The translations under genes and the position numbers were made by a program. Positions 1,914 to 54,851 of a DNA stretch of 64,000 nt are shown here, piece after piece. The notes under the pieces were generated by a model that was given only the letters and a program-made list of their open reading frames with translations, had not been told where the DNA came from and searched no databases. How positions within the stretch are numbered: position 1 is the stretch's first letter; the number at the start of each line of letters is the position of its first letter. Source of the stretch: Halichondria panicea (lineage: Eukaryota > Porifera > Demospongiae > Suberitida > Halichondriidae); assembly GCF_963675165.1 (NCBI RefSeq), contig NC_087377.1, forward strand, positions 9,964,132 through 10,028,131, read 5' to 3'.

Positions 1914-4900
1914 ATGGAGTTTGGATATTGTAAGGCAGCAGTCAGCAAGACTCTAACCATGATTGCTCTACACGTGGTTTTCCTTTGTGTCTTTGCTGCT
2001 GCAGAAGATGAAGGTAACAAAACACAGCTAGATCCACTGAGGGTTAACCCCACTGAGCCAATAAGCTCTGAATGCAAGATAATGCCTGTCTGTTCATTAT
2101 CTTGCATGCAGCAAATGTGATCAGTTTTCAACCAGAGAGAGACCTAATACCTGTTGGTCAACCAATGAGCTATACCTGCAAGGTTAAGGGTCGTGCGGTA
2201 TGGGAGTTTGGTACTTATTACTACAATACAGCCTCCAGCGACTTTGTGGGGAATAGAAGCAATCTAAATGATGGAGTGAACATCACTGACTTTACTGATG
2301 CAAGTGGCAATCATCTCTCCAAATTATTTCTTTCTTCGTCCATTGTACAAAGTCTGAATGATACAGACATGGCCTGTGGTGCAACAACAAGTCTAACCTT
2401 AAGACCAACTGAATACGAGCAGTTTAGAGTTAAAGTTTTCAGTAAGTTTTCAGGTTTATTGCACATCAGAAACTAATTCATACCCCCCCCCCACAGGTTC
2501 CCCCACTTCCCCTGGCAATGTGAGAGTGGTGTCAGAGAGGCAGAAAGAGGTCACTTTGACGTGGGAACCTTCGTTCCTGCCGTTCAACATCTCCCCTCAG
2601 TACAAGGTGTATGTAGACGGTGTCGTCGAAGCTACGATGGAAAAGCCTTCTTTTGTGTTCTCAAGATCGGAGCACTCGTGTGATTCTCACCAGATACAAG
2701 TTGAGGCGTACAATGAAGTTGGCAGTATCACCTCGGAGCACATTGAAGTGGTTTTACCTGCAGGTGTGTGTGTGTGTGTGTGTGTGTGTGTGTGTGTGTG
2801 TGTGTGTGTGTGTGTGTGTGTGTGTGTGTGTGTGTGTGTGTGTGTGTGTGTGTGTGTGTGTGTGTGTGTGTGTGTGTGTGTGTGTGTGTGTGTGTGTGTG
2901 TGTGTGTGTGTGTGTGTGTGTGTGTGTGTGTGTGTGTGTGTGTGTGTGTGTGTGTGTGTGTGTGTGTGTGTGTGTGTGTGTGTGTGTGTGTGTGTGTGTG
3001 TGTGTGTGTGTGTGTGTGTGTGTGTGTGTGTGTGTGTGTGTGTGTGTGTGTGTGGTGTGTGTGTGTGTGTGTGTGTGTGTGTGTGCAACATGTATACATG
3101 TATATAGATACTTGTTCAGTGCATGATACAGTTACTCCATGCAAGCCATATATTCATTCTGGTCATAGCATGCAGTCAGTCAAGTTATTAAGACTTCAAG
3201 ACCATGCACAAGTACAGTGCATCCAGTACAGTGCATCCAGTCTAAAGAGTAGAATACTAAAAATGTGTGAGTAGTTGTACTTAAATGTAAATATCTTATG
3301 ATTGGAACATTTTAAAGAAAATCTGCTGATACCATTGTGTAGTCTAATGAATAAGCTACAATATATCCAAAATGTTTTCCATGACAACATAAGGTGGTGG
3401 GTTTGTGGTGATTAATAAAACAGTACCCAATTGTTATAGTGTAATCGGTTAGGGAGAGAAAAGGCCAACGGTTTCCGGCTAAGGTTTGGAACTTTGTCAC
3501 AACATCTATAGATAGTTTGGCTATCTTATGAAAGATTCGATGTTACTTAAATATCTACACATCCTCTGCAGTGCTCAAAATTGCTAGTTTTTAGTGCGGT
3601 TAGGGAGAGATTTGAAGAAAATCTTACGGCTAAGGTCTAAAATTACACGGAGTAAGCTTGAATAAATTGTCTGGCTTTTGATAAGAAAAATTTTTCCAGA
3701 AATACTTTAGTTCCGGAGATAATTGATGTTACGCACATTTTTTTACGATCACCCCCATTATCACCTAAAATTATTTCCCACTACAACAACTTTTGGGGAA
3801 ATATTTTTGAATCATGTTGTAGCTTATTCTTTTACCTATACAATGGTATCAGCACAATTTCTTAGAAATGTTCCAATCTTGAGATACATTTAAGTACAAC
3901 TACTCACCTATTTTGTATTCTACTCTCTAGACTGGATGCACTGTACAATTAAAATGTGCAATATTCTTGCTGCACAAAGTTTTGCAAGCATCATGTATTA
4001 TGACGTAATAACACACGTCACTGAAGGCTGATAGAGCTCTGTCAAAATAATAAGGAATAAACAGGAGAAACATAATTATGGCTTAAGCTGCCTTACAGGT
4101 TGGCTTACAATATAGACACAAAAAATAGATGCTATTTTTATCACTTCTAAATGTGTAGTCATAATTATAGCACCTACGGTATATACACTGTGACAGCATA
4201 GATAGAAGAAGGAAAGGAATTGGAAACGCAGTAGAACCCCTGTACTATAGGCTAGTTGCGTCATGTGAAAGGAAATGCCATATACTTAACCCCTAAAGCA
4301 CTATAATTTAACCTGGTTCCACATGGGGAAACCTCAGCTCCAAGAACAAACGAAGATAATAATTATTAACACAAAAAGAGGCAATTATGGATAGTATCAA
4401 GTTTGTATTTCATGTTCAAGAAGAAGAGAAGAAGTTGACTGCCAGAGAGACGGTCCAGACTCCCTGAAAGCTTCTGGGAGTCTTCTAGAGCTTTGTGATT
4501 TCTATGATAAACACACCATGTACCATGGATAGAAGACACCAATCATTACACTATAATTATACAACAATTTTATCATGACATTTAACAATGCTCATACTTA
4601 GCACATGTATGTTGGTAAAGAAAGATTGATCTAGATACAGAAATGCTCGATTTATCCGGCACAAGTTCTCCTTGGCTTGACTTGAAAGGACCACTTCTAT
4701 CTTTGTCTAGCATTCCATACTCCCTCTTCAGGTTCCCCATGTCCTGTGTTTGAACTGCTGATAATCATAATACACAGTACAGTCATGTACTTATGGGCAT
4801 AACATAATTATAATAATGCCACAATAATTATTGTATAAAACCACAACTAAAACAAGTGATTGAGCCTTCATAAAAAAGTGTATAGCTATCTAACTGTGCT

Positions 4901-53300: not shown

Positions 53301-54851
53301 CAAACACATTCTGTGCATGCACGTTTGTCAATGAGGCACGTACTGCTTGTTCATTAAAATACCTATTGTTGATAGACAGCCGCTTTCGGAGTCCTTAAAA
53401 AAAGAAAAAGAATGTGTTGGTTTTTGGTGAGTTGCTGTGCACTTCGGAGTTTAGCCAAAACAGCCAGTGTTTGATGGTGTATATCCAACACAGGTGTGTG
53501 TTTGGTGGTACTGTTCCTCTTGACCAGGTGGCCGACCTTATGTCTAGGTGCACACTGTGGTACCTGTGGTAGTACTGTGGTGATACCGTGGTACTGTTAT
53601 ACTGTGGCAGTGCTGTATTATTATGGTACCTGTGGTAGTACTGTGGTAGTGTTGAGCTTGTCCCACAGTTTCTGTATGCTGTAAAGTATGAGATTTGTCA
53701 CCATAACTTTCTCAGGGAAATCACTGACGGAACTACATCTGTCAGCTGGTTTTTGATGATTATGGTGTACGTAGAACGTGCTACATTGAAAGCAAAAGAC
53801 CGTGTTTCCTCATACTGTGTGTAAGCCTGAATAATAGCTGCTGTCAACATATTCTTGGCACAAACATGGTAGCACTAATTACATACTCAATAATGTGGAA
53901 GATTCGGAAGTCTAATCGGACAATAAATTTCCTCGAATACTTTCCACAATATTATTTTCCTTATCTAATTGGCCAAGTACACACTTGCCAAGAAAACCTT
54001 GTGTGTGTCGTGGACGTATGAAAACATTAAGTTATCGATAATTTTTTTGTCATTCCAACCATATTATGGAAATATTGTTTACCATGTACCAATCTTGTAG
54101 AGTAACTTCCACTACTTACAACTAAATTCTGTACTTGTGCTGTTTGCCAAGTGGCATGGCATTCCAGCACATCTTCAATATTAATACCGATCAGCGTCCA
54201 CTTTATTGTCTGTGTGGCTATACGTATGTTCGTGCATAGTACGTTACTTACATTCCTCCTATGTACATTCGGTGGTTGGGTGTGTCCACTGCACTTAGTT
54301 GTTTGTTGATGATTAAATTGTTGCTGGCTAGCAGTACAACAACAAAGTTATATAATAATGAGACACAATCATTGGTGAAGTTATTGCATGTTCAAAGTAT
54401 ATTAAACACGTTTCAATGCTCACGTTGTTATGACTACTACCATATAAGTTGTTTTGTTGTGGTACGGTTGACATGAAGTCATGGTATGTGTTGAAACAAA
54501 GTAGTACATGTTCCTAAGTTTTGGAGCTCTGCCTTCATACTTGAGGTTTTATATGAGCTCCAAAACAGTTGCGCACTCGCCCTAATGAACATTTGGTATG
54601 ATCTACTATTAATAAATCCCCTCCTTCTACAGATTACACGGGATCCTGTCTACCAAACACTGGATGACGCAGCGTCAGTTCCCTCAAAGAAGGCCCCTCC
54701 CACGACACCACCCCCTGCACACTACTCGCAAGTGGCCGATGCCCTGCCTATTGGCTGGAAGGTTAAGACAGTCGGAGGCGGGGGAGGAGGGTCAAGATTA
54801 ACGCTACCACAGCAGAGAAGTGGAAGCAGAACCAGTCTCTCACAAGTCTGA
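44372..54851 (+). CDS. Receptor C: Ig-FN3-FN3 receptor with long tyrosine/proline-rich tail
   Basis: Exons 44372-44471, 44568-44897, 44956-45222, 45677-45762, 46188-46398, 46726-46826, 47348-47576, 48276-48392, 48705-48753, 49412-49523, 50974-51186, 51369-51392 (24-nt microexon, less certain) and 54633-54851; all phases agree, about 685 residues. Residues 1-441 repeat receptor A module for module (signal, Ig, FN3, FN3, CEFVPGSNALGC domain). From exon 8 on it is unrelated: helix (ALIIGASVGGAIAVVLAVVI), CCVLKNR, then a roughly 210-residue tail. The tail has 12 tyrosines (IYDSV, DYELL, TYAQL, VYQTL and HYSQV among them), proline runs (PPPPSSP, PTTPPP) and ends SQV, a class-I PDZ ligand form. Exon 10 has a NAGNAG acceptor. 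Likely a surface receptor recruiting SH2, SH3 and PDZ partners; binding is inferred from motifs. Confidence 0.83.
47909..48012 (+). repeat. Tandem repeat, three units of about 36 bp
   Basis: Unit GGTAGTCTGGGGTTACCACT followed by AGCGTATATGGGG repeats three times in receptor C intron 7. CA-rich sequence at 48225-48275 then forms the polypyrimidine-poor tract before the helix exon. Confidence 0.8.
51393..54632 (+). other. Receptor C last intron, 3.2 kb
   Basis: No additional exon accepted. It contains a segment near 51600-51735 (TTTAGAAGCCC...GGGCTTCTAAACCATG) related to 15465-15545, and a low-complexity array of GTGGTAGTACTGTGG-type units at 53559-53650. The remainder is A+T-rich. Confidence 0.5.

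Follow-up and report, generated by a model that had tools for sequence, protein, structure and literature searches.

Three sponge receptor genes of Halichondria panicea with closely similar ectodomains and different transmembrane and tail exons

Background

The best-known paired receptors are those of vertebrate immune cells, in which short-tailed or hybrid partners such as the activating KIR and Ly49 receptors and the FCGR2C hybrid have repeatedly been made by head-tail recombination. In sponges, adhesion molecules of Geodia cydonium have an Ig ectodomain and occur in long- and short-tailed forms. Here we describe three receptor genes, A, B and C, of the demosponge Halichondria panicea, located in a 64,000-bp stretch of contig NC_087377.1 (C1:9964132-10028131, hereafter the window); the genome searched comprised 131.5 Mb in 39 contigs. 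In the gene models A and B join the shared ectodomain to one short tail and C joins it to an unrelated long tail, and we consider it probable, at roughly 0.6, that the genes form a working paired-receptor system with a conserved shared head, an exchanged tail and differing intracellular output.

Among described systems, CEACAM1/CEACAM3 and CD300A/CD300C are the closest working parallel. In the CEACAM1/CEACAM3 pair, recombination and gene conversion keep the heads alike and the tails different (PMC2832619, in part), and some FcoR loci of the Botryllus fuhc cluster exchange tail motifs through alternative splicing (PMC12065747, in part). Sponge Ig molecules are treated in PMC11999971 and PMC12018476 (both in part); among the titles listed in literature searches, none described a head-tail swap of this kind in sponges, which is not proof of its absence. 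The breakpoints of the present cluster can be read at base resolution, with the same heads on different tails and the same tail behind different heads. If our reading is true, it would suggest that animals have long exchanged the signal output behind a fixed recognition module, and it would supply named genes to test in studies of allorecognition and immunity in this lineage.

Gene models of receptors A, B and C

The models were built by hand from the sequence. All three describe type-I membrane receptors in which every intron is GT/AG and the reading frame is open throughout; their parts, in window coordinates, are as follows.

1914-10814, plus strand: receptor A, whole hand model
1914..9621, plus strand: A exons 1-7, encoding signal peptide, Ig-like exon 2, FN3 (exon 3), FN3 (exons 4-5) and membrane-proximal domain (exons 6-7), from the model and Pfam fn3
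10481..10814, plus strand: A transmembrane stretch and short tail, exons 10481-10689 and 10752-10814, with PIYEEV and two NxAY
20295-30018, plus strand: receptor B, whole hand model
20295..27791, plus strand: B exons 1-7, from the model
29362..30018, plus strand: B transmembrane stretch and short tail, exons 29362-29567 and 29977-30018, from the model
44372-54851, plus strand: receptor C, whole hand model
44372..47576, plus strand: C exons 1-7, with lengths as in A and B, from the model
47577..48275, plus strand: C intron 7, the switch point, from intron comparison
48276..54851, plus strand: C-specific transmembrane stretch and long tail, exons 48276-48392, 48705-48753, 49415-49523, 50974-51186, optional 51369-51392, and 54633-54851

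An earlier note on this DNA had claimed that the first seven exons are of identical length in the three genes and that the ectodomains are closely similar. Both statements check out: exons 1-7 measure 100, 330, 267, 86, 211, 101 and 229 nucleotides (nt) in each gene, and per-exon identity is 91-99% between A and C (exons 1-7) and 79-91% between A and B (exons 2-7, exon 1 being left out of this range as B exon 1 was compared without its codon indel). The divergence claimed beyond exon 7, with A and B running into one short tail and C into an unrelated transmembrane stretch and long tail, was also upheld, except that the six tail exons given for C are reached only if an in-frame 24-nt microexon (51369-51392) is counted, the tail being otherwise modelled on five. 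The models thereby support the joining of one ectodomain to two putative, unrelated tails. The C tail has about 200 residues and four PxYxxPhi motifs, and the last exon of B is frame-shifted relative to A and ends early. By codon usage, the annotated frame of the C tail exons ranked top of the three plus-strand frames in 5/5 exons and top of all six in 4/5; in the transmembrane exon one minus frame scored above the annotated frame, and exon 9 was only narrowly ahead of its best minus frame. Because the GT/AG models are open, exons 1-7 are equal in length, the joins are in phase 1 and codon usage favours the modelled frames of the C tail, the observation of a shared head with differing tails is real and not due to chance. 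It was also noticed that a long (TG)n run at window 2763-3100 begins directly at the A exon-3 donor.

Switch point between head and tail

DNA homology between A and C ends 4 bp beyond exon 7 (9625 in A and 47580 in C). In a sensitive search of introns 3-7, introns 3, 5 and 6 matched between A and C and introns 4 and 7 did not, and C intron 7 had no match to intron 7 of B either. Between A and B, intron 7 consisted of four matching blocks in order and intron 3 matched, whereas introns 4, 5 and 6 of A did not match their counterparts in B. The unrelated exons lying behind C intron 7 are stronger evidence of a switch than the intron mismatch. Searching the whole genome with the C 3' exons (E 0.01) yielded five matches, all within C itself, and the transmembrane stretch and long tail of C are unique in the genome.

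It is very improbable that these 3' exons belong to a separate gene, with C truncated or ending otherwise. Such an arrangement would suit the abrupt end of homology 4 bp beyond exon 7, and the join of exon 7 to the tail is a prediction from sequence; however, no other upstream exons were seen in the 0.7 kb between C exon 7 and the transmembrane exon, the join is in frame from phase 1 to phase 1, and no short-tail transmembrane match at E 0.01 was found on C1 between B and 11.07 Mb. Within that range, therefore, no short tail was seen to which C could splice, and on this basis a short-tailed splice form of C was rejected.

The short tail behind other heads

Searching the genome with the short tail gave 36 matches, including seven copies of the transmembrane/tail exon at 79% identity or higher. 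A and B both belong to this short-tail family, in which an exon with transmembrane stretch, PxYEE and NxAYG is entered in phase 1. The A exon was identical to that of R931 (C1:9314304, minus strand) at 195/200 positions, to R988_2 (C1:9892640) at 192/200 and to R988_1 (C1:9884008) at 191/200, but to that of B at only 177/200. A grouped with R931 and the R988 copies in a tree built from exon 8 and its flanking sequence (support 98/99) and in one of exon 8 alone (90/92). Since tails accompanying other ectodomains resemble the A tail more closely than the B tail does, a largely separate history of tails and ectodomains appears supported, though not proved.

Read in frame, R988_2 comprises a signal peptide, an Ig-like exon, an FN3-like exon (by eye) and the A-type tail. 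Near copies of its head were found at 10.111 and 10.154 Mb, with 98 and 96% protein identity in the FN3-like exon; the Ig-like stretch of the copies gave 79%, against 80% for the locus of the query itself, these values being only 79-80% because the match extends into the intron. At the DNA level the two copies were 98.8 and 95.4% identical to the R988_2 head over about 1 kb and 85.5 and 93.8% identical in a second block of 0.8 kb. The 10.11-Mb gene continues into other exons and a unique tail (NNPLYETGGPIYEEI), for which 3/3 genome matches fell in that gene; at 10.154 Mb no tail was found in the stretch examined. The R988_2 junction lies at ~6216-6221 of stretch L065, within an ectodomain exon skipped by the model, with DNA of its own head family on the left and, on the right, DNA of the A locus from window 8351 onward (95%).

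R931 has a head of three Ig domains (Pfam), relatives of which occur in a gene on contig C4 at 82, 74 and 90%. After its Ig domains the C4 gene has one more exon, encoding a different transmembrane stretch and a long tail that is unique, and its DNA likeness to R931 stops 13 bp beyond the third Ig exon; the R931 head would be joined to the short tail across about 6 kb. Two further ectodomain families would thus each be represented by one locus carrying the short tail and another carrying a long tail of its own, and one short tail with PxYxxPhi and NxAY would stand in frame behind at least three heads, each of which recurs at another locus with a long, tyrosine-rich tail unique to it. The transmembrane exon was entered in phase 1 in 8/8 receptors read (A, B, C, R988_2, R931, R1011 and the neighbours F and G listed below), and heads and tails therefore fit in frame; the C4 gene has its transmembrane stretch within a larger open frame.

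At C1:9884008-9884229 (stretch L064 ~9377-9583), R988_1 has an A-type short tail, behind which lies duplicated DNA from downstream of A. The 9.3 kb upstream yielded no ectodomain exon resembling those of A, B or C; other kinds of head were sought there by eye only. R988_1 is apparently an orphan tail cassette.

Elsewhere, a 308-residue open frame that by eye looks methyltransferase-like, with partial self-repeats, was located downstream of the R1011 receptor (stretch L070, C1:10101901-10111900, ~5750-9745, reverse strand).

Ectodomain: domains, mosaic history and selection

Pfam fn3 matches exceeded the cut-off of 25 bits in A (29.5), B (35.3) and C (34.8), with one stretch in A and two each in B and C, so that the FN3 labels of the earlier note stand, whereas its Ig label for exon 2 is only probable. 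For this exon Pfam gave no Ig match, and the AlphaFold2 model (predicted local distance difference test, pLDDT, 31.8) was too poor for a fold search; exon 2 of A has 28% identity and two cysteines in common with the Ig-like exon of R988_2. A PDB sequence search with C (E up to 1) returned 10 sequences, which were FN3-type or titin chains, RIM-binding protein and weak transmembrane matches to a sodium channel beta subunit.

In the 5' block of about 0.93 kb, DNA identity was 91.0% for A-C, 85.9% for B-C and 84.7% for A-B. Sites unique to A, B and C numbered 32, 33 and 14 in exons 2-3, in which A and C do not pair, and 13, 58 and 19 in exons 4-7, in which A goes with C. Over exons 2-7, synonymous (dS) and nonsynonymous (dN) divergence was 0.171/0.037 for A-C, 0.294/0.074 for A-B and 0.283/0.062 for B-C, giving dN/dS of 0.22, 0.25 and 0.22, respectively, and the Ig-like exon alone gave 0.23-0.31. 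Higher ratios, each on few changes, were seen in A-C exons 4-5 (0.67) and in the signal-peptide exon (A-B 0.82, B-C 0.59). The ectodomains of the paralogues are under purifying selection, which lends no support to the polymorphic recognition role proposed earlier. A polymorphic allorecognition or immune cluster like cnidarian Alr or tunicate fuhc, a reading that overlaps with the one we prefer, would agree with the clustering of type-I receptors, the recombination of their heads and tails, the presence of pseudogenes and the recent duplication; conservation of the Ig-like exon among the paralogues and the lack of strict tyrosine motifs described below make it quite improbable.

Tail motifs

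A motif scan of the A, B and C tails found no strict immunoreceptor tyrosine-based inhibitory, activation or switch motif (ITIM, ITAM or ITSM), and a canonical ITIM/ITAM reading of these tails was ruled out. The earlier suggestion that the tails give 'opposing' signals thus finds no backing in such motifs, and 'opposing signals', like 'allorecognition', is best taken as an interpretation. The tails of A and B each contain a single PxYxxPhi and that of C contains four, counts reached in 11, 29 and 0 of 1000 shuffles, respectively. Two NxAY are present in A (0 of 1000) and one in B (8 of 1000). Taken by itself, the core YxxPhi of A was at chance level (526/1000), and a single hemITAM-like match in C, DPVYQTL, was reached in 88/1000. 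The transmembrane stretches of A and C have no charged residue. SH2 domains gave 71 matches in the genome and none in 14 prokaryote controls, as would suit an animal. As a sponge marker, silicatein, which has a serine in place of the catalytic Cys, was sought among the 77 Peptidase_C1 matches; the five that were read all had the Cys.

Tandem array and segmental duplication

The ectodomain is present at five loci in the order A' B' A B C, with A' at C1:9917353, B' at 9933368 and units of ~51 kb; 35/36 matches of a genome search (E 0.01) lay in these loci, the 36th being a weak one at 18.0 Mb. The receptor cluster proposed earlier is thus confirmed as a tandem array, in which C occupies the A-position of the third unit. 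One duplicated segment was delimited:

5435..44088, unstranded: segment duplicated upstream on C1, with its boundary in A intron 3, from DNA comparison

The comparison covered this segment except about 14.05-18.96 kb and 25.0-26.0 kb (~6 kb). Apart from indels and repeat regions, the larger blocks compared were 97.5-99.7% identical to the upstream copy; beyond 43.5 kb, in the last short blocks up to 44088, identity was 89-92%. In A', exon 3 contains a stop and has lost 128 bp by deletion, and the transmembrane exon is shortened and frame-shifted. Identity as high as 97.5-99.7% over long stretches might indicate that the A'-B' and A-B repeats are two haplotypes placed in tandem by the assembler, an artefact that we disfavour and to which we give little credence: neither the window nor the 20 kb preceding it contains an N, A' is broken and mosaic with only ~93% identity to A in exons 1-3, and the third A-position is held by C with its unrelated tail.

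More receptor-type exons were noticed at C1 ~10.17-10.50 Mb, including a run of FN3 matches at 10.172-10.180 Mb and, at 10.31-10.50 Mb, exons related to the FN3-like one of R988_2, which suggests that the cluster is larger.

Neighbouring receptor genes and relics

The minus-strand genes F and G and the relics D and D', pointed out in the earlier note, are present in the window.

13840..14200, minus strand: D, a broken relative of the short tail ('beta' tail, ...SPLYDEI...LESNSAYGQ)
17870..19860, minus strand: D', a broken receptor with FN3-like stretch (by eye), two Sushi exons and beta tail
36722..37845, minus strand: F, receptor 3' exons 37845-37651, 37589-37122 and 37053-36722, the tail with LAYEHI, PVYEEI and LAYGYV
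56067..61990, minus strand: G, receptor 3' exons, with transmembrane stretch at ~57878-57762 and tail at 56854-56067 with NPxY motifs

Tails of the related 'beta' type occur at 9.866 and 9.895 Mb as well as in D and D'. By Pfam, the two Sushi exons of D' had E values of 7.6e-4, just under the cut-off, and 2.0e-4, over it. Unlike the tails of A, B and C, that of F (36722-37053) has two strict ITIM matches (LAYEHI and LAYGYV), a count reached in 19/1000 shuffles, and the F tail exon has an upstream copy at 99.1% identity, interrupted by a single 2-nt gap. The membrane-proximal exon of G (~60480-60170) shows a weak similarity to exons 6-7 of A (E 0.02-0.04), and its predicted structure (pLDDT 51.1) was too poor for a fold search. 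Pfam, run on nine proteins, gave nothing over the cut-off for R988_2, F or G, with only a sub-threshold domain of unknown function in G. Minisatellite-like arrays in long open frames were seen at window 39680-41090 near F and at 61900-63290 adjoining a G exon.

Origin of the shared head and the differing tails

The chief rival to a working paired-receptor system is neutral birth and death, in which duplication keeps generating chimeric adhesion receptors whose tail differences have no selected signalling meaning, the short-tailed copies being decoys or on the way to loss. Such a process would be expected to leave broken A', the relics D and D', the frame-shifted last exon of B, R988_1 without an A-like head upstream, and an R988_2 chimera coinciding with the edge of a segmental duplication. 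We nevertheless regard it as unlikely, given ectodomain dN/dS of 0.22-0.25 in all three pairs, the open frames of A, B and C, and the retention of PxYxxPhi and NxAY in the short tails and of four PxYxxPhi in C.

Several points weigh against the paired-receptor reading. Orphan R988_1 and broken A' mean that part of the picture is plain birth and death. The ectodomain is itself a mosaic, and 'A and C sisters' is therefore valid for its 3' half only. With A-C intron 4 also unmatched, the lost likeness in intron 7 is suggestive, not decisive. The closeness of the A tail to tails of other heads agrees with a separate tail history, as the earlier note would have it, but an A+B tail clade was not rejected at the 5% level by an approximately unbiased (AU) test (p 0.069 for the exon alone, 0.084 with flank), and gene conversion among tails would yield the same picture as tail capture. 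The R988_2 head has no Pfam Ig or FN3 match and its Ig-like exon may be distantly related to that of A (28%), R931 has ~6 kb between last Ig exon and tail, with room for further exons, and strict ITIM and ITAM are lacking in A, B and C. The head-to-tail joins, finally, are read from the genomic sequence only.

A, B and C are paralogues of one tandem array whose ectodomain is held by purifying selection; under the paired-receptor reading the transmembrane and tail part has been exchanged, presumably through segmental duplication and recombination upstream of the phase-1 transmembrane exon, with the breakpoint at the intron start for C and R931 and within an ectodomain exon for R988_2. If spliced as modelled, the two receptor forms would read the same ligand with different intracellular outputs, and both may signal by phosphotyrosine docking of SH2 proteins, the long form through many sites and the short form through one or two. 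More tentatively, and with somewhat less than even confidence, we propose that the short tyrosine tail is a shared output cassette captured repeatedly by different heads, giving each head family long- and short-tailed versions; such plug-in paired receptors in an early-branching animal could possibly represent the root condition of ITIM/ITAM-type pairs.

Comparison with known receptor systems

As in paired receptors of the vertebrate type, closely similar ectodomains occur here on clustered paralogues with different tails, whereas an ITIM in one form together with an ITAM, hemITAM or charged transmembrane residue in the other was not found. The invertebrate receptor clusters of Botryllus (FcoR of fuhc) and Hydractinia (Alr) likewise have tyrosine motifs in their tails (PMC12065747, in part). 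With Alr, motifs alone were compared, and A, B and C differ from it in ITIM/ITAM-type tail motifs. FcoR proteins are built of a V-type Ig, a Sushi and two C2-type Ig domains, with ITIM, hemITAM or core tails (PMC12065747, in part); the order in A, B and C is Ig-like, two FN3 and membrane-proximal domain, with core YxxPhi but no strict ITIM, and the swap is between genes, unlike the splicing of FcoR. CD300A/CD300C of primates resemble A, B and C in having one head type with different tails, the heads being held alike by gene conversion, but they have a single IgV-like domain and a stated opposing function (PMC12447643, in part), which for A, B and C is inferred. CEACAM1/CEACAM3 and their relatives share with A, B and C very similar ligand-binding exons on differing cytoplasmic tails, and these pairs arose from duplication and recombination; their tails carry ITIM or ITAM-like motifs (PMC2832619, in part), whereas those of A, B and C are without strict ITIM or ITAM. 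Unlike the CEACAM pairs, the sponge genome would have one short tail behind three different heads.

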